Source of the DNA: a virus
Length of the DNA stretch: 64,000 nt
Direction: 5' to 3' (one strand)
Virus record (IMG/VR): IMGVR_UViG_3300027806_000001
Coordinates: 62,001 to 126,000 of that record
Shown here: piece by piece, positions 26,748 to 43,240 of the stretch
Numbering within the stretch: the first letter of the stretch is position 1
Layout: each line of letters begins with the position of its first letter
The notes under the pieces: model-generated
Told to the model about the DNA's origin: nothing
Database searches by the model: none
Seen by the model: only the letters and a program-made list of their open reading frames with translations
Translations under genes and position numbers: made by a program

Positions 26748-26748
26748 G

Positions 26749-26822
26749 CGTCCGCACCAGGACTTGAACCTGGAACCGCCTCGTTAGGACCGAGATGCGC
26801 TATCCAATTGCGCCATGCGGAC
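26749..26822 (-). tRNA. tRNA-Arg (anticodon CCT)
   Basis: Complete cloverleaf: acceptor GTCCGCA/TGCGGAC fully paired, D-arm GCGC/GCGC, anticodon loop GTCCTAA (anticodon CCT, T33 present), T-arm CCAGG-TTCAAGT-CCTGG, discriminator G. CCA is not encoded. It would read AGG, rare in many high-GC hosts. Confidence 0.92.
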
Positions 26823-26951: not shown

Positions 26952-26979
26952 ATTCTAACCTGCGAGGTGGGGTTGTTTA
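26952..26979 (-). promoter_or_regulatory. Phage promoter TAAACA-N16-TAGAAT
   Basis: -35 at 26974-26979, -10 TAGAAT at 26952-26957, spacer 16. The TAA is the stop of the gene at 26977-27687. Its downstream product is the tRNA-Arg region and perhaps the helicase operon. Confidence 0.78.
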
Positions 26980-27687
26980 GCCCTTCTTCTTGTTCTTCTT
27001 TTTGCCCTTGGACTGCGCCCTGGCCAGCTCGGCCGCCTGCACCTTGTCATAGGCGCGGGTTCCGTAGTAGCCCAGCGGAAGTCCGGCGGCGATCAACCCT
27101 CCGGCGATGTCTCCGCCCACGGCGGCAAAGGGCTTGAAGCCGTATTCGCTGGCCTCCTCGGGATCGATCCGACCCTTCATGGCCTCGATGGCCTTGGCCC
27201 GGCCGAGGTCGTGGGATCCGCCCAAAAAGAACAAAGACGAACTGGGCTCGAAGGCCTGCGGCTTCTTGGATCGAGCCTTGTCGAACTTCGCGGCGATGTC
27301 GTGCATCTTGTTGCGACGGATGGCCGACGCGATGAGATGGCCCAGGAACGCGCCGGCGACGCCTCCCCCGATCGCTCCCAGGCCCTGGACGTCGGGATCG
27401 CCGCTTGCCAGGTTGCCTATGCCATAGCCGGCCCCTGCGCCGAGGGCTATTCCCGGCAAGGTCATCAGGGCTCCGCTGGTCAGCGGGTTCTTGACGAAGA
27501 AGCCTGGATCCTCGCCGATGGCCTCGGCCATGGCGGTGGCCCGGCCTGGCCTGGACTCGAAGGCCGTGTTCCAGCCGGCAGGCCCCCAGTAGTCGCTGAA
27601 CAGACCTCCGCCCGAATCCATGTCGAGCAGTTCCTTGGCCTTGAGGGCCTGCTTGTAGCCAGGGAGATGGTGGAAGTAGTATGACAT
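26977..27687 (-). CDS. Virion-like glycine-zipper membrane protein, 236 aa
   Basis: Starts MSYYFHHLPGYKQ, one of five proteins here with a Y-Y-x-H-H/P head. Glycine/alanine-rich segments around residues 72-115 (LPGIALGAGAGYGIGNLA, AIGGGVAGAFLGHLIASA) and 185-205 (VGGDIAGGLIAAGLPLG) look membrane-active. Basic tail KGKKKNKKKG. Position directly behind the RNA polymerase suggests an internal head or ejection protein, as inference. Confidence 0.75.
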   Translation of the reverse strand: MSYYFHHLPGYKQALKAKELLDMDSGGGLFSDYWGPAGWNTAFESRPGRATAMAEAIGEDPGFFVKNPLTSGALMTLPGIALGAGAGYGIGNLASGDPDVQGLGAIGGGVAGAFLGHLIASAIRRNKMHDIAAKFDKARSKKPQAFEPSSSLFFLGGSHDLGRAKAIEAMKGRIDPEEASEYGFKPFAAVGGDIAGGLIAAGLPLGYYGTRAYDKVQAAELARAQSKGKKKNKKKG

Positions 27688-27690
27688 GGT

Positions 27691-28182
27691 TTAGCCCTTG
27701 ACCTGAGCCTTGCTCTTCTGCTTCTTCTTACCTATCGAGTCGATGAGCTTGTCCGCGAGGAGGTAGCCGCCGAGGCCGCCTGCGCCTGCACCGAGGAGAC
27801 CTCCTCCGCCCAGCCCAAGGAGGGCGGAGCCGCCGGCGCCTGCCGCTTCGTCCATGTTGTGCCTCATCATGGCATCGGCTTCTTCGGCGGACCGAGCCTG
27901 CGTGGGGTCGACGCCGTCGAATCCATGGGCCTTGACTCCGGTGTACGCGCCAAGGCTTGCGCCCGTCAGGCCGCCCAGGATCATGCCCAGGTCCGCGCCC
28001 ATGCCCTTGCCTGCGCCGCGGAGGATCTCCCTGAAGATCGGCTCGTCGTCGTCCGCCGCGGCTCCGTGGATGAGCGCGCTGACGGTGGTGCCGATGAGGG
28101 CCTGCTTGCTGCGGGTCTGCTCGCCGTAGAGGCGCTCGAGGTTGGCTGCGATCTTGATCATGGGTGTTCCGGGATAGGTCAC
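27691..28182 (-). CDS. Virion-like glycine-rich protein, 163 aa
   Basis: GTG start in a GTGA overlap (MTYPGTPMIK...), or ATG at MIKIAANLE seven codons in. Contains ILGGLTGASLGAYTG and a striking LLGLGGGGLLGAGAGGLGGY stretch near residue 122-142, then a basic tail (KKKQKSKAQVKG). Glycine zippers of this kind insert in membranes. Inferred virion or ejection role. Confidence 0.72.
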   Translation of the reverse strand: MTYPGTPMIKIAANLERLYGEQTRSKQALIGTTVSALIHGAAADDDEPIFREILRGAGKGMGADLGMILGGLTGASLGAYTGVKAHGFDGVDPTQARSAEEADAMMRHNMDEAAGAGGSALLGLGGGGLLGAGAGGLGGYLLADKLIDSIGKKKQKSKAQVKG

Positions 28183-28628
28183 CGCTGGAGCGGCATGTTT
28201 TGAATTCCTCGGGCATCGGCGAGCGACTGAGCGCCCGGCCGGAGGTTGGCTCCAAGGAGCTCAGCCTCGACCAGGCCCCTAGCCGCCTGATTCATCTCGG
28301 GAGTGTTGGGGTTGCGAGGATCATTCATGAGGGTGTCCACCAGGCCGAGCAGCGCCTGGCGCTTCCTGTCGGCTCCGGTCATCTGGCCGTAGGCTGCGCC
28401 GAGGCCGGCGCCCGCCAGGCCTCCGATGCCTCCGCCGACCATGGCGTCGTTGAGCCTGTAGTCGGTTCCGACGATGCCGGTCGCCTGTCGTCCCAGAGGA
28501 AGCAGCGCTGAATTCATGGAGTTGATTTCGTTTGCGGCAGCCTGATTAGCGGCCCGCCCGGCCTGGGCGATCTGATCCTGGATGCCTGCGCGCTTGGTGC
28601 GGGGAAGGGGGTGGGAGTAGTAGGCCAT
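28179..28628 (-). CDS. Virion-like protein with YYSHP head, 149 aa
   Basis: MAYYSHPLPRTKRAGIQDQI, then an Ala-rich helix (AGRAANQAAANEINSMNS), a glycine-rich middle (MVGGGIGGLAGAGLGAAYG) and a helical tail. RBS GAGGACACC precedes ATG; a TATAAT -10 box lies 34-39 nt upstream. Shares its N-terminal motif with four neighbours. Confidence 0.75.
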   Translation of the reverse strand: MAYYSHPLPRTKRAGIQDQIAQAGRAANQAAANEINSMNSALLPLGRQATGIVGTDYRLNDAMVGGGIGGLAGAGLGAAYGQMTGADRKRQALLGLVDTLMNDPRNPNTPEMNQAARGLVEAELLGANLRPGAQSLADARGIQNMPLQR

Positions 28629-28636
28629 GGGTGTCC

Positions 28637-29269
28637 TCAGCTGAAGCGTTCGTAGCGTCGGATTATATCGGCAAATCGCTTATCGCTCTTTGCGCGGTTC
28701 CTGGCGATGGCATGGCCCGCGAGGCCGCCCAGCAGGGCGCCCAAGGTGCCCGCGCCTCCGGCCTCGAGCACCGGGGTCAGCGTCGGGCCGAACTTGTCGT
28801 GGCCCGCGGCGTAGGCGCCGGCGCCCGTGCCCAGGGCGGCCAGCAGGCCCGAGACGACGGCCCACCTGGTGGAGGTGCCGCTGATGTCGTCCAGCAGCTC
28901 GCGCTCCCTGGGGGTGAAGGACTCCTCGGCCTCCTCGAGGCGTCCCTTTTCCTTGGAGTAGAGATGGGTCTGGCCCATGAGCTTGCCGATGGCCAGGCCG
29001 GCCAGGGCGCCCGGCAGGCCTCCCCCGAGGTAGTACCCGGCTGCCGCGCCCGGCACCGCGTAGGCGCCCTGGTAGAGGGCCGTGTCGCCGAGCTCGAGCA
29101 GGCGCTCCTTGTTCATCAGCGACGGGCCGAAGTACTGCTGCTTCAGGTCCTCGTAGCCCCGCAGCGGGGTCTGTCCGCGATCGGCCTTGCCGACGGTGAC
29201 CCGCTCGACCGCGGTGCCGGGCAGCGAGGCGACGTCCTGGATGTTGCGCAGGTAGGGATCGGCCGGCAT
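28637..29269 (-). CDS. Virion-like protein with repeated glycine zippers, 210 aa
   Basis: Head MPADPYLRNIQDVASLPG. Segments YAVPGAAAGYYLGGGLPGAL (residues ~70-90), VSGLLAALGTGAGAYAAGH and GAGTLGALLGGLAGHAIA are hydrophobic and glycine-rich; between them is an acidic linker (EEAEESFTPRERELLDD). Likely membrane-interacting; exact role unknown. Confidence 0.74.
   Translation of the reverse strand: MPADPYLRNIQDVASLPGTAVERVTVGKADRGQTPLRGYEDLKQQYFGPSLMNKERLLELGDTALYQGAYAVPGAAAGYYLGGGLPGALAGLAIGKLMGQTHLYSKEKGRLEEAEESFTPRERELLDDISGTSTRWAVVSGLLAALGTGAGAYAAGHDKFGPTLTPVLEAGGAGTLGALLGGLAGHAIARNRAKSDKRFADIIRRYERFS
28662..28667 (-). promoter_or_regulatory. -10 box TATAAT before a virion-like gene
   Basis: TATAAT inside the last codons of the upstream gene, 34 nt before the ATG at 28628. 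No convincing -35, so a weak or activator-dependent internal promoter. Confidence 0.4.
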
Positions 29270-29272
29270 TCG

Positions 29273-29782
29273 TCACCTCTTCAACTGGCCGTACAACTCG
29301 AACGGATCGACCACGCCGCGCATCGGATTTCGCTCGCTGTTCCACCGGTTGTAGGCATCGACGGCCATGGTCGGCCCCTGGCGCCGCGCGATGGAGGAGG
29401 CGCTGTCCGAGATGCTCTGGCCCAGGTGGCCGGCCTGAGCAGACTGCTTCCCAAGGCCTGACAGCGAGTGGCCGTAGGGCTGGTTGCTCAGGTAGAAGGG
29501 GGCCTGGGAGACAGGCGGAGGAACGGCTGCGGCAGGCAGGTCGGCCGGCGCAGGAGGTCCCACGAAGTCAGGATGGCCGTAGGAGATCACAGGACTGGCG
29601 GCCGGATGACGCAGGGAGTCGCGGGCTGGATTGTACGCGACCGGCTTGTTGAACTTGGTGAGGTTCTTCGCGGCCATGAACGGAGAGCTTCTGGTGGTCC
29701 GGCTGACCGCCTCGAGGAATTTGGCCACGCCGTCGGCCGGGCCTGCCGAGGACTTCACATGGTGGGAGTAGGGTCGGGTCAT
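29273..29782 (-). CDS. Virion-like protein with PYSHHVK head, 169 aa
   Basis: MTRPYSHHVKSSAGPADGVA matches the head of the 635-aa protein (MPKPYDHHVKSAQGPGPG) over 16 positions. The rest is Pro/Ala/Ser-rich and probably disordered (PPAPADLPAAAVPPPVSQAP). ATGA-coupled to the RNA polymerase gene. Suggests co-packaging with the polymerase. Confidence 0.73.
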   Translation of the reverse strand: MTRPYSHHVKSSAGPADGVAKFLEAVSRTTRSSPFMAAKNLTKFNKPVAYNPARDSLRHPAASPVISYGHPDFVGPPAPADLPAAAVPPPVSQAPFYLSNQPYGHSLSGLGKQSAQAGHLGQSISDSASSIARRQGPTMAVDAYNRWNSERNPMRGVVDPFELYGQLKR

Positions 29783-32700
29783 TCCAGGATCCTGACCGTG
29801 TCGGTCGCCGACACCTCGCCGCGGTTGAACGCCTTGATGGCGTCCTCGCGGGTGCGGAAGGTCTTGGCCACGTTCTTGTCGGCCTTCTGCCGGCTGGCCA
29901 GGTACAGGCCGTAGAGGAACTCGTTCTTGATGAAGGGCTGCGCCTGGAAGGTCGCCGCCGAGAGCAGGTTGCGGCTAGGCAGCATCTTGCGGTAGGCCTC
30001 GTCGACCGCGGCCTGGGTGCTGGGCACGTGCAGGCGCATCTGGTCGCCGTCGAAGTCCGCGTTGAAGCCGACGACGACCGACGGGCTCAGCCTAAGGGTC
30101 GGCCCCGCGGTGAGCACCGGCCTGGCCGCCATGAAGTTGTACTTGTGCAGCACGGGCGCGCGGGTGATCATCACCGGGCGCCGCTGCATCTCGGCCAGCA
30201 GGGCGCGGTTGGCGGTGGGCGTCCTGGACTCCACCTGCTTCATGGCCTCGAGGGGCGACGCCCCGCTGGCCACCAGGGCGCGCACCACGTACGGCCTGAA
30301 GACCGAGTAGGCCATGTCCTCGGGCACGCCCACGTGGTCCATGTCCAGGGACGGATCCGGGGTGATGACCGCGTTGCCGACGCCCTCGACGGTCGAGGAC
30401 AGCACCTTGCGCTGGAACATCGAGAACTTGGGGTTGCTGCCCAGGATGTGCCGGATCAGGCCGTTGACGTTCTTCTGGCGCAGCTTGGCGCTGGCGGGAT
30501 CCGCCAGGCCGACCGTGGCCTTGACCATGTTGTACAGCGCCAGGCGCTCCTTGCCGGACGCCTCCTGGCCGAGCTCGCCCTGCAGGTCCTTCAGGTTGCG
30601 GTTCATGCCGAAGAGCTCCTTGTACAGGTAGTTCATGTCGGCGACCATCTGCATGTTGCCCGTGTCGGTGATGGGCCGGAACCGCGGCGGCAGCACCGGC
30701 ATGTCCTCCCAGAGGAAGTCCGACGGCTTGAGGTTCCGCTTCGTCATGCCCTCGAGGTACGAGAGCCTCGAGATGGCGTTGCTGCGGCGCTGGCCCCTGG
30801 CGGTGGCGATCTCCTTGCGGGCCATCTCGGCCTCGGCCTTGAGGTCCATGCCGCCGAGGCGCTGCTCCAGGCCCGCCATGCCGTCCACGCCCTTGACCTT
30901 CTCGCCTGAGATGACCCGCTCGAGGTCCTTCTTGGTGAAGCCCATGAGCGACCTGACGGCGTCCTCCATGACGGGGTTGACCACCTTGGCCGCCAGGGGG
31001 AAGTGGCCGAACTTCGACTGGTTGGTGCCGAAGATCTTGTCGTCGAAGAAGCCGCCGTCGTAGGCCTTGCCGGTGCGGAAGTCGATGTCCCGCGGATCCT
31101 GGATCTCGCCGCCCGAGAGCTTCTTGACGTCGGAGCCGGTCATGCCATAGATGTTCACGGCGCCGCCCTGGCGCTCGACGTTGACGCCGGCGCCCTTCAG
31201 CTGGGAGACGAACTTGTCCCAGACGAACGGCACGTTGACCGCGGGGACGGGGGTGCCCATCTTGACCGCGCGCCAGTACTCGTCGTTCTTCTGGCCCCGG
31301 ACCAGGCGGGCGTCCTTGATGACGTCGATCGCGCCGTGGGCCAGCAGGGCGTTGATGTCGCTGATGGAGATGCGCTTGGCGCCCTCCTCGCCGCCCTTCA
31401 CGGGGGCCTCCTCGGTGCTGTAGCCTCCGAGGTCGCGGGCCGTGAGCTTCTTCTCCGCCTGGTGGTGCAGGTTCATGAAGTAGCGGTTGCCGGTGAAGAT
31501 GCCCTCGATGTTCCGGCCGAGCCTGGGATCGAACAGCGTCTCGGTGTCGGTCAGGCCGTTCTTCTTCAGCTCGCGCTGGGCCATGTCGATGTAGGACTCG
31601 TCGACGAAGGCCGGCAGCTTGTAGGGCACCCCGGTCTTCACCGCGATCTTGCCCAGGGCGGCCTCGACGGCCTGCACCGGGTTGACGCGGCTGGTGAGCG
31701 CCAGCGGGTTGAAGGCGATCTCGTAGGGGTTGCCGTCCTTGTCCTGCGGCATGTCCTTGTCGTCGACCACGGCCGAGACGACGCCCTTGTCGCCGTACCT
31801 GCCGACGAGCTTGTCGCCGACGCCCATGGGCTTGTAGCTCTTGATGGCCACCTGCCAGCCGCTGCGGGTGCGGGTGACGTCGGTGACGACGCCGGGCTGG
31901 CTGTGGTCCCAGGTCTGCGCCCGGTTGCTGTACGCCGGGCGGGTGCGCTTGACCAGGCCGAAGGTGTCGCCCTGGCGCTCGCCGACGCCCAGGATGACCG
32001 GGTCGCCGGGATTGACCATGGTGCCGACCTTGACGACGCCGGACCCGGCGTCGATGGCCTTGAGCTGCTCCTGGGAGTAGACGCCTGGGAACAGCGAGAC
32101 GAACCGGGAGTAGTCGGCCGAGTAGTCGTCCTTGGAGTCGTAGCCGATGGTGTACATGTGCTCCGAGGACATCTTCTCGGCCGCGGTCTTGGACATCACC
32201 ACGCCGTCCTCGAAGTTGGCGCCGCCGAGCTCCGGGTCGCCCCACACCGTGTAGGCCACGCGCAGGTTCTTGCCCATGGCGAGCCGGCCCTTGTCGTCGG
32301 TGTAGTTCGACTTGGCCAGGAGCTGCCCCGGCTGCACCTGGTCGCCCACCTTGACCATCGCCGTGTTGTGCAGGAACGTGTTGTGAATGACCAGGCCGCA
32401 GTTCACGGCGAAGACGTGGCTGTTGGCCACGGTGAAGTCGTAGACCCGCTCCTCGGCAGGCGCCTCGACGACCTCCTCGACGATGTCCCACATGACGTCG
32501 GACTTCGCCCAGGCCTCGAACGGACCCCTGGCGTTTTGGCGCGACACCTTTCCTGCGGATGCGTCCTTGTAGGCGCGCATCGGAACATCGTGCTCAAACC
32601 CGGCATAGACCAGCTGCCTGCTCTTGGCCGGCAGCGGTATGAACTCGAACACGGAGGTTCGGTAGGAAGAAGACCTCAACGACGAAAGTTTGAGGTTGCG

Positions 32701-35700
32701 GTCGGAATAGAGGAACCACTTGTCCAGCTTGGCCAGATGCGTCGAGATGACCCTGAGGCCGTAGGCATCCGCCCAATTCGGATTAGTGGAACTGAGCTGC
32801 CTGTCGGAAAGAACCGTGGAGAACACCCCGAGGCCGGACAGAAGATCGATGAGAGCGTCACGCATGGCGCGGGAAGTGGTCCATGCTTCCAATTGAACCG
32901 CGCCATTCGAGTCCTCGTGCAGGCATCCGTCGCCTGCGAAATAGCCTGCGACAAGGCCATGCCTGAACGCTTCGGAGCGGTCGAAGGCTCTTTCGGACGG
33001 ACACTTGTGAGCGCTGCCGTGGCCAAATTCAGCCACCAGCCACGACGCCACTTCGGAGGAGGTAAAGCTGACCTTGCCGGCGTCCGCCTTGTTGTCGTGA
33101 GGCTTCAAGCCCAGTTGAACAATCAGTTGCTCGAGTTCAGCCCTGCGAGAAGCATCCTTCACCGCGAGGATGACCATGTTCGGCTGCGAAGGCGGAACAT
33201 GGCCCTCGGCCAGGTAGATGCCGGCCAGAAGACCCCATTCGTGGGAATCGCGTTTATCGACGGAGTCCTTCGGATTGTCCATTGCGCATACCGGCAGTCG
33301 AGTCGTGCCGACCACGCACTCGTCCGGGTACAGGGGCACCAGCTTTCCGTCCTCTCCCATGGTGACCAGGGAGTGGTCCTCGGTGACGACCACGGTCCTG
33401 CCACCGCGGGTGCGCACCTGGACCATCCTGCGGTCGTTGGTCAGCTCGACGAAGGCCGTCACGGGCTCCCACGAGGACCTGCAGGTCTCCGGATCGATCG
33501 AGCGGATGAGGTCTCCTGCCGCGAAGGCGTACTGGTCCGCGCGCACGTGCATCCTGCGGTCACCCCGCAGAATCCACACCTTGGTGGACCCCTTGACGCA
33601 CTTCCTGTTGAACGGGAAGTTGTTGTAGGTCTCGTACCTGCGCTTCGTCTTGCCGTGCTTCACCTCGACGAAGTCCGGGTCGACCGCGGTGACGACGCCG
33701 GGGCCCAGCTCCTTCTCCGCCGTCACGGCCGCCAGGGCCGACTGCAGCTGCTCCTCGTAGGCGCGGCCCTCGGGATCCTCGGAGTCGAGGCCCTGCACCA
33801 GGGGCGACTCGGCGTCCCGCACCGGCAGGGCCTGGGTGAAGTACTTGCTGCCCATCAGCAGGCGGCCGCCCTTGATGCCCGACACGCCGGGCACGAGGTT
33901 CGAGTTCACGTTGAACATCGCGTTGTGCGACGGCAGCTCGAACTGCACCGCCTTGGGGTCGACGTAGGAGATCTCGCCGCCGACCATGGCGCGGACCATG
34001 TCGCCGGTCTTGGCGGCCTTGGCCAGTTCGCCCGGGAAGGCCACGATGGAGTCGGTCACCTGGCGCGCGGGCACGGGCTTGACCTCGCCGGTCCTCGGGT
34101 CGCGCAACCTGGAGTAGAGCTGGCCGTCGGTGCCCTTGATGGCGCCCACGGTGAGGCGGAGGTCGACGCCGACGCTGGAGCTCTCGGGCGTTCGAACGGG
34201 ATCGATGAACCCGAAGTGCGACGGCTGCACCGACCGGCTGTCGATGGGAATGCCGTGGGCGCCCGAGGAGATGCCGCCCTCGCCGGTGCGGATGACGCGC
34301 ATGTTCTGGTCGAGGATCTCCATGGGGTTCACCTCCTCGATCGGAGCGCCAAGGCCGGAGCCCATGAGCACGCCGTTGAGGGCCGGGGTGAACACGCCGT
34401 TCTTCAGCGGCTCGAGGTTGCCGCGGTTGGTCGCCTTGAACAGGGCCGTCCGCAGGATGCCGCCGGCGTCCTTCTCGATGCGCTCCGAGAAGAAGTCCTC
34501 CGGGCCGAGGAACTTCTGGTAGGCCAGGCTGTCGCGGTCGTCCTGGTCCTCGAGGCCCTTCTGAGCGTTGAGGATCTTCTGGCTGGCCCTCAGCAGGGTG
34601 CGGCCCGAGATCTTGCCGAAGTCGTCGTCCGTGAGATCGACCGGGGTCATCGGCCCGATCTCCACCGGGGCGGCCTCCTTGGTCTCCATCAGGGTGTTGA
34701 GGTCGGCCGCGGCCTTGACCCCGACCGACAGGCGGAATCCGCCGCGCGGCTTGGGGTCGAGCAGCAGGCTGCGACGGAGCTGCTCCAGCTCGGGGCACTC
34801 GATCTCGACGCAGTACTCGCCGCTCATCGGCGGCAGCACCTTGACCAGGTCGTAGGTGAAGCGGCGGCCGGAGCCGCAGGTCGCCTCGAAGTCCTTGCGG
34901 AAGACCTTGCGCAGCTTCTTGATCTCGTCCGCCTCGATGACGGTCAGCCTGCCGTCGCCCTTGGCGATGCCGGGAGCCTTGTCCGAGTCCCTGAGGGCGT
35001 AGTACACGCCGTCGATCAGGCCGGATGGAACCGTGATGTAGCCCTCGGAGTCGATGCGCAGGGTGCCGCGGATGGGCACGGAGGCGGCCTTGGCGCGGTA
35101 GCCCAGCGTGCGCCGCGTCACCTCGGGGTCGAGCACCGTGGACTCGAGGGCGGTGCGGATGCCGGAGTAGATCGTGTTCTCGTCGAGGTCCTTGGACGGC
35201 TCGTTGGTCAGGCGCTCGTAGATGCGCCCTGCGTCGTAGGCCGAGCCTTCCTTGCTGGACGCCAGCAGGTCCTTGCCCCACGTCTTTTCAAGTTCATCAT
35301 CGGTGACGCCCAGGGCGCGGAACATGGGGTAGGCCGGGGCGACGGACTGGCCGATCTCCACGACGAACTTGCCGGTGTCCGGCATGAGGGCCATGCGGAA
35401 GCCGCGGCCCTTGCCCGGCAGGGTGTTGAAGTGAGCCTCGTACTCGCCCGACTTCCTGCGGCGGACGAACGGGCCCGGCAGGAGGCGGGACTGGTTGGTC
35501 ACCACGTACTCGCTGCCGTTGGAGATGAAGGTGCCGCGCGGGGTGAGGTACGGCACGCGGGCCAGGGTGACCGGCTTGTCGGTCTGATCGATGACCGCCC
35601 CGGTGGCGTTGTCCTTCATGACCAGGTGCCCGCGCAGCGGGGTGTACAGGCTCTGGCCCTGCATGAGGGCCTTCTGCTGGTCCTTCAGGGTGTACTCGGG

Positions 35701-35883
35701 GGCGCCGGCGTAGTCGACGTCGGCGGCCTCGACCGTGTACCGGGAGTTGGACAGGGGGAACCTTGCGGCGACGGCCTTCCGGACGCCGTCCAGGATGTTC
35801 CGGCGGATCGTGGAGTAGTCGTCGAAGCGCCGCATCTCGGGCTGGGCGGGGGCCAGCAACGAGTTCAGGTCCTGGGGAGGCAT
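29779..35883 (-). CDS. Fused RNA polymerase beta / beta-prime (N-terminal part) with intein
   Basis: 2034 aa. Beta: GTFISNGSEYVV (118-129), FGFIDPVRTPESSSVGVDLR (557-576), GKNLRVAYTVW and NFEDGVVMS after the intein, GDKLVGRYGDKGVV (1356-1369) and FNPLALTSRVNPVQ (1391-1404). Beta-prime begins near 1594 with IQDPRDIDFRTGKAYDGGFF and reaches NADFDGDQM (1941-1949), the three metal-binding Asp of the catalytic loop. The beta-prime zinc-binding segment after KIFG is deleted. The protein stops ~85 residues past the active site, so bridge helix and trigger loop must lie in another gene, not in this window. An intein occupies 762-1168. A -10 box exactly 6 nt before ATG predicts a leaderless mRNA. Surrounding virion-like genes suggest a packaged (virion) RNA polymerase, as in phiKZ-type phages. 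Confidence 0.95.
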   Translation of the reverse strand: MPPQDLNSLLAPAQPEMRRFDDYSTIRRNILDGVRKAVAARFPLSNSRYTVEAADVDYAGAPEYTLKDQQKALMQGQSLYTPLRGHLVMKDNATGAVIDQTDKPVTLARVPYLTPRGTFISNGSEYVVTNQSRLLPGPFVRRRKSGEYEAHFNTLPGKGRGFRMALMPDTGKFVVEIGQSVAPAYPMFRALGVTDDELEKTWGKDLLASSKEGSAYDAGRIYERLTNEPSKDLDENTIYSGIRTALESTVLDPEVTRRTLGYRAKAASVPIRGTLRIDSEGYITVPSGLIDGVYYALRDSDKAPGIAKGDGRLTVIEADEIKKLRKVFRKDFEATCGSGRRFTYDLVKVLPPMSGEYCVEIECPELEQLRRSLLLDPKPRGGFRLSVGVKAAADLNTLMETKEAAPVEIGPMTPVDLTDDDFGKISGRTLLRASQKILNAQKGLEDQDDRDSLAYQKFLGPEDFFSERIEKDAGGILRTALFKATNRGNLEPLKNGVFTPALNGVLMGSGLGAPIEEVNPMEILDQNMRVIRTGEGGISSGAHGIPIDSRSVQPSHFGFIDPVRTPESSSVGVDLRLTVGAIKGTDGQLYSRLRDPRTGEVKPVPARQVTDSIVAFPGELAKAAKTGDMVRAMVGGEISYVDPKAVQFELPSHNAMFNVNSNLVPGVSGIKGGRLLMGSKYFTQALPVRDAESPLVQGLDSEDPEGRAYEEQLQSALAAVTAEKELGPGVVTAVDPDFVEVKHGKTKRRYETYNNFPFNRKCVKGSTKVWILRGDRRMHVRADQYAFAAGDLIRSIDPETCRSSWEPVTAFVELTNDRRMVQVRTRGGRTVVVTEDHSLVTMGEDGKLVPLYPDECVVGTTRLPVCAMDNPKDSVDKRDSHEWGLLAGIYLAEGHVPPSQPNMVILAVKDASRRAELEQLIVQLGLKPHDNKADAGKVSFTSSEVASWLVAEFGHGSAHKCPSERAFDRSEAFRHGLVAGYFAGDGCLHEDSNGAVQLEAWTTSRAMRDALIDLLSGLGVFSTVLSDRQLSSTNPNWADAYGLRVISTHLAKLDKWFLYSDRNLKLSSLRSSSYRTSVFEFIPLPAKSRQLVYAGFEHDVPMRAYKDASAGKVSRQNARGPFEAWAKSDVMWDIVEEVVEAPAEERVYDFTVANSHVFAVNCGLVIHNTFLHNTAMVKVGDQVQPGQLLAKSNYTDDKGRLAMGKNLRVAYTVWGDPELGGANFEDGVVMSKTAAEKMSSEHMYTIGYDSKDDYSADYSRFVSLFPGVYSQEQLKAIDAGSGVVKVGTMVNPGDPVILGVGERQGDTFGLVKRTRPAYSNRAQTWDHSQPGVVTDVTRTRSGWQVAIKSYKPMGVGDKLVGRYGDKGVVSAVVDDKDMPQDKDGNPYEIAFNPLALTSRVNPVQAVEAALGKIAVKTGVPYKLPAFVDESYIDMAQRELKKNGLTDTETLFDPRLGRNIEGIFTGNRYFMNLHHQAEKKLTARDLGGYSTEEAPVKGGEEGAKRISISDINALLAHGAIDVIKDARLVRGQKNDEYWRAVKMGTPVPAVNVPFVWDKFVSQLKGAGVNVERQGGAVNIYGMTGSDVKKLSGGEIQDPRDIDFRTGKAYDGGFFDDKIFGTNQSKFGHFPLAAKVVNPVMEDAVRSLMGFTKKDLERVISGEKVKGVDGMAGLEQRLGGMDLKAEAEMARKEIATARGQRRSNAISRLSYLEGMTKRNLKPSDFLWEDMPVLPPRFRPITDTGNMQMVADMNYLYKELFGMNRNLKDLQGELGQEASGKERLALYNMVKATVGLADPASAKLRQKNVNGLIRHILGSNPKFSMFQRKVLSSTVEGVGNAVITPDPSLDMDHVGVPEDMAYSVFRPYVVRALVASGASPLEAMKQVESRTPTANRALLAEMQRRPVMITRAPVLHKYNFMAARPVLTAGPTLRLSPSVVVGFNADFDGDQMRLHVPSTQAAVDEAYRKMLPSRNLLSAATFQAQPFIKNEFLYGLYLASRQKADKNVAKTFRTREDAIKAFNRGEVSATDTVRILE
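32380..33600 (-). mobile_element. LAGLIDADG intein in the beta part of the polymerase
   Basis: 407 aa, Cys1 (residue 762) to His-Asn (1167-1168) with Thr as +1 residue. Block A CVKGSTKVWI, block B VVVTEDHSLV, LAGLIDADG helices GLLAGIYLAEGH (884-895) and GLVAGYFAGDG (976-986), then VYDFTVANSHVFAVNCGLVI before HN. It splits the highly conserved FNRK / TFLHNTAMV region that precedes GDQVQPGQLLA. Splicing residues are all present, so both splicing and homing activities look intact. Confidence 0.93.
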
Positions 35884-35889
35884 TCCCGG

Positions 35890-35895
35890 ATTATA
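35890..35895 (-). promoter_or_regulatory. Extended -10 promoter TGCTATAAT of the RNA polymerase gene
   Basis: TTTGC-TATAAT lies six bases from ATG (CCGGGA between), so transcription should begin at or beside the start codon. The upstream -35 region has no good match. Confidence 0.7.
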
Positions 35896-35912
35896 GCAAA
35901 GTCAGGCAGGGC

Positions 35913-36938
35913 TCAGAGCTTGAACTTGACGTTGCCGTCCTGCTCCTCGAGGTCGATGCCGGAGTGCAGCACCTCCTCGCCGGTCTGGCGCCGAAGCAGC
36001 GCGTTGAGCTCCTTGAGCTTGCGCCGCTCCGGGTCCTCCTTCATGCTCTCGTTCATGAGCTTCCAGCCGACCAGGCCTCCGATGCCCACGGGCAGGCCCA
36101 TGAGCAGGTAGCTGAGGTTGCCGGGGAAGTTCGTCAGGCCGTGGGCTTCCACAGGCGGCCTTTCCTTGATGACCGCGACGCTCGGATCCAGGCCAGGCAC
36201 CGCGCGAACGCCGTCCTCGGCCTGCTTGACCGAATCGGCCAGCTCGTCGAGCGCCGAGGAGATCTTCGAGGTGGGCTCGTTCAGCGCCGCCTCGAACTCG
36301 CGCTTGGCCTTCTTCAGCTCGTCGTCGATGCGCTGCTTGCGCCGCATGTCCACCAGGCGCGTGCCCAGGATGTACGTCGCGACGCCGGGGGCGATGGCCG
36401 CGATGGGCCACGCCGCTCCTGCCAGGACCGGCCCCGTGAGCCATCGGTCGATGGCGCCGTCCTCGGACTGCTTGAGGGAGGATTCGTTCCCCATGTCCTC
36501 CATCTCCTCGCCGGAGAGGCCGGACTGCTCGGACTTCCCCTCGGGCAGCATCTTGTCGGCCTCGGGAGGCTGCTCCTCGACCGACTTGCGGCTGCGTGGG
36601 ATCTGCACGCGCTTGCGGTACTTGTTCTTCCTGATCTCGTCCAGCTCGCTCAGGTCGCGCAGCTCCTTGGCCCCGCCGTAGCCGGCCGAGAGGGCCAGGC
36701 CGCCCAGGGCGCTGGTGCCGGCCAGGGCGGCCAGCACGGCGGCATCCGCCGAGCTGAGGCCCAGGGCGGACTTCTTCTCGGGCAGGCCCTTCCGCGGCGT
36801 GGAGGCGAAGTCGGTCACGTCCTTGCCGGACATGCTCGAGGCGGCCTCGCGGGCCTTGGACGATCCGGTGGCCTTGCCCTCCTGGATCGCCTTGACGAGG
36901 CCGAAGAACCGCTGCTGCTTCTTGCTGGTGGATGGCAT
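35913..36938 (-). CDS. Virion-like protein with DUF3008-type head, 341 aa
   Basis: MPSTSKKQQRFFGLVKAIQE, SMSGKDVTDFAST and GLPEKK form the short DUF3008-type motif found at the N-terminus of many phage and prophage proteins. Then Ala/Gly membrane-like stretches (AVLAALAGTSALGGLALSAG; LAGAAWPIAAIAPGVATYIL; LLMGLPVGIGGLVGWKLM). Acidic linker at ~120-160. GGAGC sits upstream of the chosen ATG. Probably a virion inner-membrane or ejection component. Confidence 0.75.
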   Translation of the reverse strand: MPSTSKKQQRFFGLVKAIQEGKATGSSKAREAASSMSGKDVTDFASTPRKGLPEKKSALGLSSADAAVLAALAGTSALGGLALSAGYGGAKELRDLSELDEIRKNKYRKRVQIPRSRKSVEEQPPEADKMLPEGKSEQSGLSGEEMEDMGNESSLKQSEDGAIDRWLTGPVLAGAAWPIAAIAPGVATYILGTRLVDMRRKQRIDDELKKAKREFEAALNEPTSKISSALDELADSVKQAEDGVRAVPGLDPSVAVIKERPPVEAHGLTNFPGNLSYLLMGLPVGIGGLVGWKLMNESMKEDPERRKLKELNALLRRQTGEEVLHSGIDLEEQDGNVKFKL

Positions 36939-36952
36939 CGCGCTGCTCCTGG

Positions 36953-37525
36953 TCAACCGCCTGAATTGTTGTTCTCGAACGGACGCCAGTCCCAGTCAAC
37001 CGGACGGTTGCCTTGCTCGTAGTACGGCTTGGGAGCCTCTCCGCCGAACATGGAGTCCCACGCCGTGCGGTTGATGGCCGCATCGGCCACGGCGCCCTGG
37101 TGGACCAGCTGCTCGACCGTTCCCTTGTGCTCGGGACTCTTGCTGAGCGTCTGTGCGGCGGTGCCGTACTGCTCGGGATTGTCGAAGTACTGCGCCTCGT
37201 CTGCAAGGCGCGAGTTGACGAAGTAGCGGCCGCCGAGGCCAAGACCAAGGCCGGCCAGGGCTCCGATGCCTCCAAGGCCCGACTCGCCGCGGCGACGGCC
37301 GCGCAGGCGGTCCAGGATGGAGCCGACGCCGTAGCCCAGCAGGGCGCCGCCGGCGCCGTAGAGCAGGTTGTTGCCCAGGCCGCTGTCGGCTCCGAACGGA
37401 TTGACGAATCCGTGCAGGTCCCTGGCGTTCCACTGGCCAGGCGCAGCCGCAGCGTAGTAGGGCGTGTCCGCCTGCTTGCTCTCGGTTTCGGCCCGCTTCT
37501 GCATGTGGTGGGAGTAGTAGGCCAT
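36953..37525 (-). CDS. Virion-like protein with YYSHH head, 190 aa
   Basis: MAYYSHHMQKRAETESKQAD, then two glycine zippers (LLYGAGGALLGYGVGSILD; GIGALAGLGLGLGGRYFV) and an acidic C-terminus with many Asn (PFENNNSGG). RBS AAGGAAT is present and a TACAAT -10 lies ~35 nt upstream. Inferred virion protein. Confidence 0.76.
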   Translation of the reverse strand: MAYYSHHMQKRAETESKQADTPYYAAAAPGQWNARDLHGFVNPFGADSGLGNNLLYGAGGALLGYGVGSILDRLRGRRRGESGLGGIGALAGLGLGLGGRYFVNSRLADEAQYFDNPEQYGTAAQTLSKSPEHKGTVEQLVHQGAVADAAINRTAWDSMFGGEAPKPYYEQGNRPVDWDWRPFENNNSGG

Positions 37526-37527
37526 GG

Positions 37528-37923
37528 TCAGGATTCCTTGGGGCTGCAGGAAATGCGCATTGTATCAAGGTCGCCCAGGTACTGGGGCAGCTCCTCGGCG
37601 GGGATGGTCAGGTTGACGGCGTACTTGATCCAGGAGATCCAGTTCTCCTTCGCGGGTATGAACTCCGACTCCTCGGTGAACTGGCACCAGCCGCGGCTCT
37701 GCCACTTGACCAGCACGTCGTTCAGCTTGTTGTACTCCTCGAGGTCCTCTTCGTTCCACAGGCGGAACTGCCGGCTGCGGAAGAAGGGAATCTCCTGGGG
37801 CAGCGACTGGGGAGGATCGGTCGGCTTGATGATCGGCCGGACGGATCCCATGAAGGGCGCCCCGTCGCCGAGCTGCGAGAAGCCTCCGAGCATGATGCTG
37901 GCGGGTCCCAGGGGGTCGCTCAC
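37528..37923 (-). CDS. Hypothetical protein in the virion block, 131 aa
   Basis: Soluble, Trp-rich protein (LVKWQSRGWCQFTEESEFIP, ENWISWIKYAVNLT) with a proline-rich start (IIKPTDPPQSLPQEIP). ATGA-coupled to the KEKAK-tail gene upstream. It could be a small head or neck component, but no family is recognised. Confidence 0.7.
   Translation of the reverse strand: MSDPLGPASIMLGGFSQLGDGAPFMGSVRPIIKPTDPPQSLPQEIPFFRSRQFRLWNEEDLEEYNKLNDVLVKWQSRGWCQFTEESEFIPAKENWISWIKYAVNLTIPAEELPQYLGDLDTMRISCSPKES
37559..37564 (-). promoter_or_regulatory. Extended -10 TGATACAAT
   Basis: TTGA-TACAAT, within the end of the preceding gene, 34 nt before the ATG at 37525. Similar placement to the TATAAT in front of the YYSHP gene. 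No clear -35. Confidence 0.45.
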
Positions 37924-38231
37924 TTGGATTCTCCCTTGGCCTTTTCCTTGGCCTTTTCCTTAGCCTTCTCGCCCAGGTCCAAGGCCCTGGCGTTGCCCTC
38001 GGCCGTCCTCTTGGCGATGTCCTCCGGGGTGGTCGGCGCATCGGGCGCCGCGTCCCACTGCTGCTTGGCCTTTGCGGATCCGTAGCCCAAGCCTCCGCCC
38101 AGGCCGGCGCCTCCCAGGCCCATCATGACCGCGGCCAGCTCGTCGTTCGGCTTGACCAGCTTGCCGAGGCCGTAGCCACTGGTGCCGCCGATGCCTGCGC
38201 CGAGCAGGGCCCAGAGCAGTTCCTGGTTCAT
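37920..38231 (-). CDS. Glycine-zipper membrane protein, 103 aa
   Basis: Two zippered helices (LLWALLGAGIGGTSGYGLGK, VMMGLGGAGLGGGLGYGSAK) and a long charged tail ending KAKEKAKEKAKGESK; the KEKAK repeats come from short DNA repeats at 37930-37970. Likely inserts in membranes with a cytoplasmic or capsid-facing tail. Confidence 0.73.
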   Translation of the reverse strand: MNQELLWALLGAGIGGTSGYGLGKLVKPNDELAAVMMGLGGAGLGGGLGYGSAKAKQQWDAAPDAPTTPEDIAKRTAEGNARALDLGEKAKEKAKEKAKGESK

Positions 38232-38617
38232 GCCAGTCCCTTTCGAACCTCGTTGGTCGCCTGGCGGTACTTGGCCAGCAGGTGCAGCTTCTTGGCCTCG
38301 TCGGCCTCCGAGAACTCGGGCAGGATCTGGCCCTCGGGATCGACCACGTCGGTGCCCTTGTTGTACATCCAGTTGGCGCCGGCTCCGGCGATGCCGCCGC
38401 CCACGAGGCCCAGCGCGGCCAGGGTCAGCGCCAGGTTGACGGCGCCCTGTCCAGTGTTGACGGCCTTCTCGCCTGCGCCGAACGTCTTGGAGGCCACGTC
38501 GGAGACGGCGTCAAAGAATCCCTGCTTGCACATGAGCAGTTCCGACGGAGTGAATCCCAGCTCGGCCGCCCTGGTGCAGAACCCGACCTTGAACCGCATT
38601 TTCGCTGCTTCGTCCAT
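38228..38617 (-). CDS. Virion-like TM protein, 129 aa, leaderless
   Basis: KVGFCTRAAELGFTPSELL is a motif of small phage structural proteins. One membrane segment (LALTLAALGLVGGGIAGAGA, ~60-80), then VVDPEGQILPEFSEADEAKK. TAGACT with TTGAGC at 17-nt spacing lies so close that the transcript should start at ATG. Function unknown. Confidence 0.73.
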   Translation of the reverse strand: MDEAAKMRFKVGFCTRAAELGFTPSELLMCKQGFFDAVSDVASKTFGAGEKAVNTGQGAVNLALTLAALGLVGGGIAGAGANWMYNKGTDVVDPEGQILPEFSEADEAKKLHLLAKYRQATNEVRKGLA

Positions 38618-38623
38618 CGCAGT

Positions 38624-38652
38624 AGTCTACCTTATGCGGAGCCTAGGCTCAA
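38624..38652 (-). promoter_or_regulatory. Promoter TTGAGC-N17-TAGACT for a leaderless mRNA
   Basis: -35 at 38647-38652 (inside the preceding gene), -10 at 38624-38629, six bases (ACTGCG) to ATG. Confidence 0.6.
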
Positions 38653-39860
38653 ATGCCGAGTTTTCCAAGGTTGATGAGAGTGCCTAGCGCGGCGCCGGTG
38701 CCTTGCATGACGCGCTGCTCGGTCGGGCTGATGTTCATGAAGAGGCCGATGCCCTTGGCGGCCACTGTGCCTGCCAGCGCTCCGGCCCCAGCGCCGACCG
38801 CGGCATGCGCCACGTCCCGCACGGTGAACCACGGCTTGTCCGGCCGGGCCCGGCCCGCGCTGTTCATCAGGCCCAGCGCCTGGGCGTAGGTGATCTGGCC
38901 GTCCTGCCACTGCTCGGCCAGAGTGTCGGCCAGGTGCGCCTTGGAGAGCTGCAGGCTCAGGGGGATGGCGGAGTTGGCCTTGACGGTGTGCTCCGGCTCC
39001 GGGTCGCCCGGCACCACGGCGTTGCGGTTGATCCTGGCTATGGTGGCCCGGGACCTGGCGGCCTGGTCGGCCTGCATCTCCGGGGTGTAGTCCTCGTTCT
39101 TGACGGCGCCCAGCCTCGAGAGATCGGACACCGTGCCAGGGAAGGTGGCCAGCCATGGGGCGCTCATGCCGGCCAGCACGGCCAGCGCGCCCAGCGCCTT
39201 GCCCTTGCGCTGGAACCTCTCGGGGAAGAAGTACTGCAGGGCCGGCACCGCGGCCAGGCCCAGGGCGGACAGTCCCGCCCCGGTCACCACGTTGCCGATG
39301 CGCCTCTGGGCGTCGGCCGAGTACTGGCCCTCTCCGTACCAGGCGCCGGGGGAGTACCCCAGGTACTTCTGCAGGTCGCCCACGGTCGCGCCCTGCTTCA
39401 TGCCCGGCTGAGCCTGGGGCTGCGCCTTGCGAGCCTGGAACTCCCTGGTGGCCTTGAACATGTCGCGCATGGGGTCGGCGGCCGGGGCGGCCGCGGCGTC
39501 GCCCTCGGGCTTGGCCTTCAGAGTGTCGTTGGTCAGCTTGCCCTTGAGCCTGGAGGTGGGCCTGGTCATCTTTGAGACGGTGCCGCCCGGGGTCGGCATG
39601 CCGAAGCCCGCCCCGATCGCGGCGGGAGCCGCGGCCTTGACCCTGGACTCCAGCTCCAGGCCATGCACCACCTCGCGCGGGACGTGGATGCGGAACCCGG
39701 TGGGCTGGTGGGTCAGCCCCACGATGCCGCCCTGCTCGGAGTCGATGTAGAACTCCGCGGGAGCCTGGCGCACCAGCTGGTTGACCAGCGAGTGCTTGGC
39801 GCCGTACTGCCGCACGTCGGAGTAGCCCTTGGCCTGCTTGAGGTCCGAGACGTTCGCCAT
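38649..39860 (-). CDS. Virion-like protein, 403 aa
   Basis: MANVSDLKQAKGYSDVRQYG, with FYIDSEQGGIVGLTHQPTGF, a Pro/Ala linker (KAKPEGDAAAAPAADP), a membrane-like region (VVTGAGLSALGLAAVPALQY; ALAVLAGMSAPWLATFPGT) and a C-terminal zipper (VGAGAGALAGTVAAKGIGLF). Long protein with several hydrophobic stretches, as expected of an ejection protein. GAGGACC before ATG; one base after the preceding stop. Confidence 0.74.
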   Translation of the reverse strand: MANVSDLKQAKGYSDVRQYGAKHSLVNQLVRQAPAEFYIDSEQGGIVGLTHQPTGFRIHVPREVVHGLELESRVKAAAPAAIGAGFGMPTPGGTVSKMTRPTSRLKGKLTNDTLKAKPEGDAAAAPAADPMRDMFKATREFQARKAQPQAQPGMKQGATVGDLQKYLGYSPGAWYGEGQYSADAQRRIGNVVTGAGLSALGLAAVPALQYFFPERFQRKGKALGALAVLAGMSAPWLATFPGTVSDLSRLGAVKNEDYTPEMQADQAARSRATIARINRNAVVPGDPEPEHTVKANSAIPLSLQLSKAHLADTLAEQWQDGQITYAQALGLMNSAGRARPDKPWFTVRDVAHAAVGAGAGALAGTVAAKGIGLFMNISPTEQRVMQGTGAALGTLINLGKLGI

Positions 39861-39861
39861 G

Positions 39862-41769
39862 TCAGTTGGTCCTCGTGGCGTAGTTCCCGTAGGGGGACCG
39901 GCCCTGGTCAGGTGGTCCAAGGACGGCCTGCAGCAGGGCGGGATCGTTCAGCAGCATCGTCATCGTGGCCGGATCGACCGCCTGGCTCAGCCTTCTGGAG
40001 GCATCGACGGTAGGCGCAGGGGACTGCAGAGCTTCCTCCCGGCTCCTGTACCAGTTGGCCAGGGTCTGGTAGGCCTGGGGATCGGAAGCGGCCAGCTCGC
40101 CAAGTTCCGCCTGGGTGCGGGAGTTCTCCGGAATCGCTCCGTAGATCGAGTCCCTGAGTTCCGGACTGACCCTCTGCAGCACATCCATGACGGCCTGCGG
40201 CGACTGGCCCAGGCCCACCAGCCTCTGGGTCAGTTCGGAGCCCAGGCCCTGCCGGTTCAAGGCTGCCTGCTCGCGGTCGAACTCGGCCCTGGCCTTGCGC
40301 TGGGAGTAGGTCTCGAGCCCCTTGAACGGAGCCGAGGCCTCCATGGCGCCGGTGGCCAGGCGGACAAATGCGTTGTCCGGAATGTCCTGCTCGAGCTGAG
40401 AGCGGATCACGTCGAGTTCCTTGGTGTCGGGATAGCTGACGTTGCCGTACTGATCCACGGGAACCCCCTGTTCGGTCGCGGATCGCAGCACATTCTCCCG
40501 GAGAGGGGCTTTGGAGAGAAGGGAGGCGGGAATGGTAAAGGCCTGCGCGGTGTTCGGGAGGCCGGTCATGCGCTGGGCCGGACCCACGGCGAGCTCCCTT
40601 GCGACTTCGCCAAAGGACGCGTTCGGATTGTCGCCCAGCAGCTCGCCTGCCGAGGAGAGGCCTGCCTCCGCACCCTGGGCGAAGTTGCCCAACCCCCAGC
40701 CGCGGCCCAGGGATCCTAAGGCGAACTGCGTCAGTTGACCCGGCACCGTCGCCGTCGCCCCGGAGCCGGAGAGGACTGCCGGAGCCATCCTGGAGCCGGA
40801 GATGGACCAGAGGGGATTGAGCGCGCTGCCGAAGGCGTTGAAGACTCCCTTGGCCCCTTGTTCACCGAACCCTGCAACCGTGCGCAAGGCGCCGGGGGAG
40901 AGCTTGGAGGAGAACTGAGGCAAGGCGAACGCCCCCTCGTACAAAGCCTTGGGGACGACCCTGCCTGCGGAGCTGACCGCCTGGCCTGCCCGGGCGACGA
41001 CCGGAGCCACCTTGGCCGGCACCGCGGACATGATTTTGCCTCCGGCGGCGGTGACGAGGTTGCCTGCCCGGGATGCCAAAGAGGGCAGCACCGCCTTGGT
41101 TGCTCCGGCTCTGCCGGCGTTGGCGACAAGGGCGGCGTTTCCCTGCCCGCCGGTGGCTGCCGCGGTCAGGGCGTGGGCTCCTGTAGCAAGTGAGGTGCCT
41201 GCCCAGTTCTGCAAGGAATTACGCGCGAGCACGGGATCCCGCTCCATGGCGTCGTACATCAGGAAGGAGTTGACGCCCGCCTTGCCTGCGTCGGGCAGGT
41301 ATTTGGTGTAGTAGGCGCCCTGATCCTCCAGGCCTTCCTGGACGGCCTGCTGGTTGTCTGTCATGTAGTTGTAGGCGATGCCTGGCCAGCTCATGTTCCA
41401 CGCCGCGCTGGCGTACGGCTGCACGGTGTCCCGCCAGAACTCCCTTGGCCTCGCGTTCCTGACGTAGGCCGGAGGCAGCAGGTCCTCCTCGGTCATCCTG
41501 CGGCCCATGATCGGAACGACCGCCGGCACGGCCTGACGACCAGGCTGATCGTAGATGCCGCCGGCGGCCCGGGAGCTGGACGCGGCGCCGGGCCGCGGCT
41601 CAGGCAGGGACGCCCCCACCGGTTCCGGTTGCCGAGTCCTTGCGTTCGACTGGACGCGGCCTGCCGGCGACATCATGCCCATCAGGTTCTGGTTCTGGAT
41701 GCTCTCCAGGGAGTTGCCGGGACCTGGGCCCTGCGCTGACTTGACGTGATGGTCGTATGGCTTGGGCAT
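39862..41769 (-). CDS. Large virion-like protein with PYDHHVK head, 635 aa
   Basis: MPKPYDHHVKSAQGPGPGNS, almost the same head as the 169-aa protein next to the polymerase. A Pro/Arg/Ser-rich region (1-100) is followed by long Ala/Gly/Val-rich parts (AGTSLATGAHALTAAATGGQ; AGNLVTAAGGKIMSAVPAKV) and a charged helical C-terminus (ETYSQRKARAEFDREQAALN). First gene of the leftward virion block; its leader has a TACAAT box and CAGGACC RBS. Candidate internal virion/ejection protein. Confidence 0.74.
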   Translation of the reverse strand: MPKPYDHHVKSAQGPGPGNSLESIQNQNLMGMMSPAGRVQSNARTRQPEPVGASLPEPRPGAASSSRAAGGIYDQPGRQAVPAVVPIMGRRMTEEDLLPPAYVRNARPREFWRDTVQPYASAAWNMSWPGIAYNYMTDNQQAVQEGLEDQGAYYTKYLPDAGKAGVNSFLMYDAMERDPVLARNSLQNWAGTSLATGAHALTAAATGGQGNAALVANAGRAGATKAVLPSLASRAGNLVTAAGGKIMSAVPAKVAPVVARAGQAVSSAGRVVPKALYEGAFALPQFSSKLSPGALRTVAGFGEQGAKGVFNAFGSALNPLWSISGSRMAPAVLSGSGATATVPGQLTQFALGSLGRGWGLGNFAQGAEAGLSSAGELLGDNPNASFGEVARELAVGPAQRMTGLPNTAQAFTIPASLLSKAPLRENVLRSATEQGVPVDQYGNVSYPDTKELDVIRSQLEQDIPDNAFVRLATGAMEASAPFKGLETYSQRKARAEFDREQAALNRQGLGSELTQRLVGLGQSPQAVMDVLQRVSPELRDSIYGAIPENSRTQAELGELAASDPQAYQTLANWYRSREEALQSPAPTVDASRRLSQAVDPATMTMLLNDPALLQAVLGPPDQGRSPYGNYATRTN

Positions 41770-41877: not shown

Positions 41878-42591
41878 ATGAACACGCGCGTCGACTACAG
41901 CCCCCTTCGCCAACATCTCATGGAGAAGACGGCCTTCCTGGGCGATCTGCTTGGATCAAGCAAGTACGAGCCGCAGATTCTGGAGGACGTACCGTCGATT
42001 GACGACTTCGATCCTATGACCCAGGACTACGAGCAGGCCCTGGACAAATACTGGAAGAGCCTGGGCTACTCGGACGTGCGGCGGCACGACTACGCCCCAT
42101 CAGGAACTCCGTACACCATGAAGGGCCCCGACGGCCGCTACTACGAGGCCGCCATGAACGAGGACCTGGGCAAGTGGGAGCTGACTCCCATGGGCGGTCC
42201 TCAGCACGACATGGCCGAGCACCCCGACGATCTGCCGGATACCTACAACCGCAAGGGTCCGAGCCTGGGCAGGGACAAGAACTCCATGGACTACAGCCTC
42301 CTTCGCCAGCACCTCATGGAGAAGATCGCAGCCTCTCCGGCCTGGACCAGGGCCGAGGGCAAGAACCCCGAGGGCGGCCTCAACGCCAAGGGCCGGGCCA
42401 GCTACAAGGCGCAGACGGGCGGCACCCTGCGTCCGCCGGTCACCAAGGATCGCGCCGACAAGAGCCCCAAGGACGCCAAGCGCCGGGCCAGCTTCTGCGC
42501 TCGAAGCGCAGGCCAGATGAAGATGTGGCCGGAGGCCGCCAAGGATCCGGAGAGTAGGCTCAGGAAGGCCCGCCGGGCCTGGGACTGCTGA
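41878..42591 (+). CDS. DUF6321-like protein with duplicated head motif, 237 aa
   Basis: Only plus-strand virion-area gene. Two copies of a head motif: VDYSPLRQHLMEKTAF at residue 5 and MDYSLLRQHLMEKIAA near 138. The C-terminal part (AEGKNPEGGLNAKGRASYKA, KRRASFCARSAGQMKMW, SRLRKARRAWDC) matches DUF6321, found in phage and marine viral proteins. An internal ATG before the second motif could yield a separate ~100-aa product. Ends before a bidirectional terminator. Leaderless start. Confidence 0.75.
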   Translation: MNTRVDYSPLRQHLMEKTAFLGDLLGSSKYEPQILEDVPSIDDFDPMTQDYEQALDKYWKSLGYSDVRRHDYAPSGTPYTMKGPDGRYYEAAMNEDLGKWELTPMGGPQHDMAEHPDDLPDTYNRKGPSLGRDKNSMDYSLLRQHLMEKIAASPAWTRAEGKNPEGGLNAKGRASYKAQTGGTLRPPVTKDRADKSPKDAKRRASFCARSAGQMKMWPEAAKDPESRLRKARRAWDC

Positions 42592-42671: not shown

Positions 42672-42959
42672 TCATTCGGAGACTCCTTTGCCGTCGCCGC
42701 GGCCGCTGCCACCGCCCATGCCGCTGCCGCAGACGCTGCCGTAGCCCCAGCCTCTGCCATTGCCGTCGCCGCGGCCGCTGCCACCGCCCATGCCGCTGCC
42801 GCAGACGCTGCCGTAGCCCCAGCCTGTGCCGCTGCCATCGCCGCCGCCGCTGCCGCCGCTGCTGTGGTCCCAGCCTCTGCCGTCGCCGTTGCCTCTGCCG
42901 TTGCCGCCGCCCTTGCCCCTGCCATCGCCATCACCGTGGCCATTACCTGGGTTGCTCAT
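42672..42959 (-). CDS. GX-repeat glycine-rich protein 13 (95 aa)
   Basis: Head MSNPGNGHGDGDG. Carries an internal duplication (GWGYGSVCGSGMGGGSGRGD twice). Last copy of the second large GX array; after it the frame ends VSE with an ATGA into a 4-codon ORF and then the terminator. Function unknown. Confidence 0.86.
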   Translation of the reverse strand: MSNPGNGHGDGDGRGKGGGNGRGNGDGRGWDHSSGGSGGGDGSGTGWGYGSVCGSGMGGGSGRGDGNGRGWGYGSVCGSGMGGGSGRGDGKGVSE

Positions 42960-43240
42960 GATGAACCTCCTTCGCCGTTGCCACTGCCGTTGCCATCGCC
43001 GCTGCCGGCGCCGTCGCCGTAGCCCCTGCCGTTGCCGTAACCTTTGCCGTTGCCCCGGCCTTCGCCATCGCCGCCGCCGTTGCCGCTGCCCCAGCCTGTG
43101 CCGTGGCCGCAGCCTGTGCCGCGGCCTATGCCGTAGCCCATGCCGCTGCCCTCGCCGTCACCCGAGCCGCTGCTCCAGCCCTTGCCGTCCCCCATGCCGT
43201 TGCCCTCGCCCTCGCCATGGCCATTACCTGGGTTGCTCAT
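42956..43240 (-). CDS. GX-repeat glycine-rich protein 14 (94 aa)
   Basis: Head MSNPGNGHGEGEGNGMGDG, then a regular GX repeat with no interruptions longer than one residue. Ends GEGGSS, encoding GAAGGAGGTTCATC plus ATGA for the next gene. Function unknown. Confidence 0.86.
   Translation of the reverse strand: MSNPGNGHGEGEGNGMGDGKGWSSGSGDGEGSGMGYGIGRGTGCGHGTGWGSGNGGGDGEGRGNGKGYGNGRGYGDGAGSGDGNGSGNGEGGSS

Follow-up and report, generated by a model that had tools for sequence, protein, structure and literature searches.

In bacteriophage T4, about ten N-terminal residues suffice for internal proteins to enter the prohead, and the targeting residues precede separable processing residues (PMC9026906). 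The first 30 residues of phage P1 DarB send a reporter into the capsid (PMC9024508), and gp53 and gp54 of phage SPN3US carry an identical 15-residue N-terminus (PMC5694885). Here we describe short N-terminal peptides, or heads, borne by otherwise unrelated proteins of a large uncultured phage represented by IMG/VR record IMGVR_UViG_3300027806_000001. On sequence evidence and by analogy with these systems, we consider it likely that the heads are capsid-targeting sequences (CTS), removed by the phage's prohead protease at Lys-x-Ala or sometimes Lys-x-Ser.

The window is the whole stretch of DNA analysed, 64,000 nucleotides corresponding to bases 62001-126000 of the 183,468-bp record; positions are those of the window unless given as genome positions, and relatives and their loci are designated by L numbers. 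The remaining stretches of the record were fetched, and genes were called record-wide with a simple codon-based script. A first comparison of all genes was swamped by glycine-repeat proteins, which were excluded afterwards; with strongly glycine-repeat genes left out, the N-terminal motif count covers 207 genes of the record. About two dozen small paralogous reading frames with alternating glycines (xGxG) lie at 42672-45261 on the minus strand and elsewhere, for example at 18.1-20.7 kb. They are roughly 75-140 residues long, start with MSNPGNGxG or MSTQNIEYG, and are open on the opposite strand too, so that we regard them as putative proteins. Three adjacent minus-strand genes at 22861-25504, apparently repeat-bearing paralogs, contain repeat units reading KAELLAMALRGEPRP...HPLGxxLxxYTNPSSxSYDPVFDQEIRALRPDWF.

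A sequence-only reading of the window had singled out five proteins with a common tyrosine/histidine head. The five reading frames and their Tyr-x-His-[His/Pro] N-termini exist as described, except that the positions given for them were the low (stop) ends of minus-strand genes and the heads sit at the high ends (Table 1). Within residues 2-9 the pattern is found in exactly these five of the 207 genes, against 0.06 expected from its frequency elsewhere in the proteins, and a chance origin is rejected. The same reading held the bodies behind the heads to be unrelated, and comparison of N-termini bears this out: with similar-body pairs excluded, 10 pairs score at least 50 and 31 at least 40, whereas three control segments yield 1, 0 and 0 pairs at the former threshold and 13, 1 and 4 at the latter. 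Common ancestry of the whole proteins is rejected as well, since the heads are similar without similarity of the bodies. As in a T4-type CTS, a short N-terminal peptide is common to unrelated bodies. One pair of these H1 heads is near-identical (MTRPYSHHVKSSAGP and MPKPYDHHVKSAQGP) with synonymous codons changed, indicating that the peptide rather than the DNA is conserved and leading us to reject a DNA element as the cause of the similarity. The bodies had also been called often glycine-zipper-rich, which fits some of them, such as 26977-27687 with its sub-threshold glycine-zipper match in Pfam, and does not fit 29273-29782 or 39862-41769; for most head proteins the Pfam search returned no family. 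Gene 36953-37525 keeps its H1 head in a close relative (L015/L028), and at the locus of 39862-41769 the starts in relatives read MIPYSAYIKQA or MTPYSSYIKKA.

Table 1. Heads, other genes of the head-bearing cluster and predicted protease (window positions unless marked genome)
Feature	Position	Strand	Remarks
H1 head MSYYFHHLPGYKQA	27646..27687	-	gene 26977-27687, 236 aa; predicted cut after KQA
H1 head MAYYSHPLPRTKRA	28587..28628	-	gene 28179-28628, 149 aa
H1 head MTRPYSHHVKSS	29747..29782	-	gene 29273-29782, 169 aa
H1 head MAYYSHHMQKRA	37490..37525	-	gene 36953-37525, 190 aa
H1 head MPKPYDHHVKSA	41734..41769	-	gene 39862-41769, 635 aa
H2 head MIKIAANLERLYGEQTRSKQA	28099..28161	-	gene 27691-28161, 156 aa
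Further H2 heads	genome 175443 and 176576		
H3 head, first copy MNTRVDYSPLRQHLMEKTA	41878..41934	+	gene 41878-42591
H3 head, second, internal copy MDYSLLRQHLMEKIA	42286..42330	+	precedes DUF6321 domain
129-aa protein, GFCTRAAELG head (H5-type)	38228..38617	-	relatives: GFCEKAAELG
Conserved cluster protein, 403 aa	38649..39860	-	KQA at residues 8-10; no head family assigned
DUF3008-like protein, no head	35913..36938	-	sub-threshold match
Fused beta-beta' RNA polymerase	29779..35883	-	no head
Prohead protease (predicted)	genome 44516-45868		

A scan with the polymerase identified seven relatives at 70-97% identity, in which many genes near the polymerase bear heads of the same kind; a scan with the body family of 27691-28161 yielded no contigs beyond those already found. 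N-termini compared with similar-body pairs excluded fall into at least three head families, namely H1 (PYxHH, also PYSAYIKQA), H2 (MIK[ILV]AxNLxxL) and H3 (YxLLRxYLMQKIA), alongside two smaller groups (LFxSYLxKYA and GFCxKAAELG). H2 and H3, which the sequence-only reading had not reported, are also present in the window phage, whose genome has five H1 heads, three H2 heads and, in a single gene, two copies of H3. Several cluster genes lack a head, including 28637-29269, 37528-37923 and 37920-38231, and a tRNA-Arg (cct) at 26748-26822 on the minus strand directly adjoins the cluster. In a 190-kb relative, several proteins near the polymerase (L039:98-9191) bear a repeated head of another pattern, YxxGFxxxCAxxGxDPxxLA.

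Heads of different families occur on homologous bodies. For the 27691-28161 protein, the window phage and L011 have an H2 head, whereas the L010 and L013 homologues have H1, and the alignment with these two starts at a common RSKQA. The bodies of L020_1504 (H1) and L024_2473 (H3) are 75% identical starting after KQA, and L022_251 (H2) matches L024_8375 (H1) at 85% over a 34-residue stretch. Where heads differ, body homology restarts at or just past Lys-x-[Ala/Ser]. The close relative L015 has at the 41878-42591 locus a single hybrid head, composed of the start of the first H3 copy and the end of the second, which identifies the H3 repeat as a recombination joint. Two further proteins (L020_787 and L022_14914) seem to have two tandem heads, with a later start codon possible.

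The sequence-only reading had also proposed that the tag loads the polymerase. This part is unsupported, as neither the fused beta-beta' polymerase (29779-35883) nor a second polymerase-related protein carries a head. The latter is encoded near the capsid genes at genome 53372-55231 (minus strand) and weakly matches the PHROG RNA polymerase beta subunit; Salmonella phage Arash likewise has a second annotated polymerase gene. Compared with its L010 and L011 counterparts, the fused polymerase has approximately 400 extra residues, around residues 763-1168, and this stretch, absent from the relatives, is by its sequence a probable intein with a homing-endonuclease-like part.

All five H1 heads end in Lys-x-Ala or Lys-x-Ser, the latter in one case (KSS), and nearly all H1, H2 and H3 heads, different as their sequences are, finish in Lys-x-[Ala/Ser]. 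Across the close clade, 88 cluster genes show a Lys-x-Ala density per 1000 positions of 25-46 over residues 2-20, which drops to 11 over residues 21-25 and to about 2-7 farther on, with about 2-4 in the bodies, whereas the reversed pattern, Ala-x-Lys, has no N-terminal rise in the same genes. Within the window phage genome, 10 of 16 cluster genes have Lys-x-Ala in residues 2-25, compared with 18 of 181 others (Fisher p=3e-6).

The same pair marks the capsid genes. Across four capsid-core proteins of the window phage, Lys-x-Ala is the most over-represented of about 2000 two-residue patterns (39 observed, 13.2 expected); the core was picked partly for its apparent richness in this pair, and relatives and T4 were tested afterwards by the same rule. 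The pair likewise tops the ranking for the capsid cores of Salmonella phage Arash, Vibrio phage D69 and L031, compared with rank 479 in the other Arash genes, and is not top at some distant polymerase loci that were selected by eye (L029, L035 and L039). Scanning with the protease alignment produced 48 loci; at 37 of these loci, some of them near-duplicates, neighbour genes were taken by a fixed rule, and Lys-x-Ala holds first place in 32 and never falls below fifth. When the sites are pooled, the consensus is [M/L/F]-[E/V/T]-K-[Q/T/E/V]-A-[E/S/A], and Pro and Gly are avoided around the pair; the H1 sites match the preference for Leu or Met ahead of Lys less well than do H2, H3 and H4. As controls, the T4 core returned IxE at rank 1 and LxE at rank 4, which is the known gp21 motif, and the processed proteins of phiKZ returned SxE at rank 2 in their N-terminal 160 residues and at rank 11 at full length. 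The phage's own predicted prohead-protease motif, as read from the capsid core, thus follows the heads, as it does in a T4-type CTS.

Lys-x-[Ala/Ser] lies shortly before a conserved RxxxRE segment in 36 of 36 major capsid proteins, down to about 26% identity (35 by regular expression, plus L098, which has KVA without the R required by the expression). In nearly all protease members whose N-terminus was inspected, Lys-x-Ala stands just ahead of the catalytic domain, and in many a second one follows just after it. In PHROG the window phage protease matches head maturation protease with E 1.7e-5 (up to 1e-9 in relatives), its alignment has invariant His and Ser, and it sits beside scaffold and capsid genes, so that in both family and position it is gp21-like. 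In the model of a homolog (L089), residues 45-205 are predicted with confidence, the domain pLDDT being about 80, and both flanks are disordered. VIA-align placed T4 gp21 (5jbl) first against this model (Z 10.5, rmsd 2.9 over 132 residues) and herpesvirus proteases next (Z about 6-7.7), while Foldseek alone, with Mla/MCE proteins at the top of its list, found no PDB match at E<=0.001. In its predicted fold, too, the protease is gp21-like.

For the role of the head, the sequence-only reading had suggested a tag for packaging or capsid targeting, or else a protease/maturation signal; the sequence supports such a role well, given the modular, swappable heads, their Lys-x-[Ala/Ser] ends and the presence of the motif in the capsid core, capsid proteins and protease. 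In the mechanism that we propose, a short N-terminal head would bind to a core or shell component of the prohead, and the tagged protein would be enclosed as the prohead forms. The prohead protease would then cut after Lys-x-Ala, sometimes Lys-x-Ser, with the consensus [L/M/F]-[E/V/T]-K-x-A ahead of the cut and [E/S/A] behind it, an exact bond predicted from the sequence pattern, and would release the mature protein inside the head, giving the tagged proteins a virion location. Further substrates of this protease would be the major capsid protein, the scaffold and the protease itself. Recombination near the junction would attach new bodies to heads, and the head families would be interchangeable because the head is discarded.

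Largely similar traces would be expected from a cleaved prodomain that plays no part in targeting. Were the heads only such prodomains, serving folding or holding glycine-zipper bodies inactive, with the packaging signals in the bodies, the Lys-x-Ala processing evidence would fit equally well, and glycine-zipper-like bodies could need masking. A head common to unrelated bodies, and one body with different heads, are nevertheless better explained by a common destination, and we judge the prodomain explanation unlikely. We think it very unlikely that Lys-x-Ala is a shell- or scaffold-binding motif rather than a cleavage site: the pair does recur through the scaffold, but it flanks the protease domain and precedes the conserved part of the capsid protein, as known prohead cleavage sites do, and the statistic used here, applied to T4, returns the cleavage motif of that phage. 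Short N-terminal peptides can also bind a chaperone or other assembly factor, or act as host-localisation signals after infection, without being removed; in one cited study, the N-terminus of the T4 capsid protein reportedly directs proteins to GroEL. The confinement of Lys-x-Ala to the N-terminus of the cluster proteins, and the restart of homology there, make such retained heads highly improbable. Least credible is the account in which the heads serve as 5' cassettes for recombination or translation initiation, have no protein function and are similar through gene shuffling, because despite the H3 recombination joint and H2 heads almost identical in DNA (28161 and genome 177229), the H1 peptide is kept while synonymous codons change and the differing H1, H2 and H3 nearly all end in Lys-x-[Ala/Ser].

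We thus favour protease-removed capsid-targeting sequences. With evenly divided confidence, we extend this reading to a lineage of large phages that would use a set of capsid-loading tags which are unrelated, can be exchanged and stacked, and all end in Lys-x-Ala as a new prohead-protease site, and so maintain an open cargo system that a protein enters by acquiring a head through recombination. If this is true, the capsid cargo of uncultured phages could be listed, and the specificity of a prohead protease read, from the genome sequence; capsid-targeting sequences would be known from phages other than T4 and P1, and the loading of proteins into capsids would gain new short tags.

Our small open-access search found no literature on a K-x-A prohead site or on Salmonella phage Arash. 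The closest parallel is the CTS of T4 internal proteins and Alt, a short N-terminus common to divergent proteins and removed by gp21. The peptide here is another one, the predicted site is K-x-A rather than [I/L]-x-E, and several unrelated head families swap on homologous bodies. Membership in the T4 CTS family itself is rejected, since K-x-A and not [I/L]-x-E is the enriched pair. P1 DarB resembles the heads in having an N-terminal capsid signal; that signal is on one large protein, and the paper describes no common head family. In phiKZ and SPN3US many head and ejection proteins are processed, but they are cut after Glu (S/A-x-E in phiKZ), mostly have long propeptides, and have their RNA polymerase subunits split. 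Herpesvirus assemblin, compared by fold alone, matches the predicted protease fold less closely than T4 gp21 does. The CTS principle is therefore already known; new here are the predicted cleavage site, [L/M]xKxA, and a set of swappable head families.
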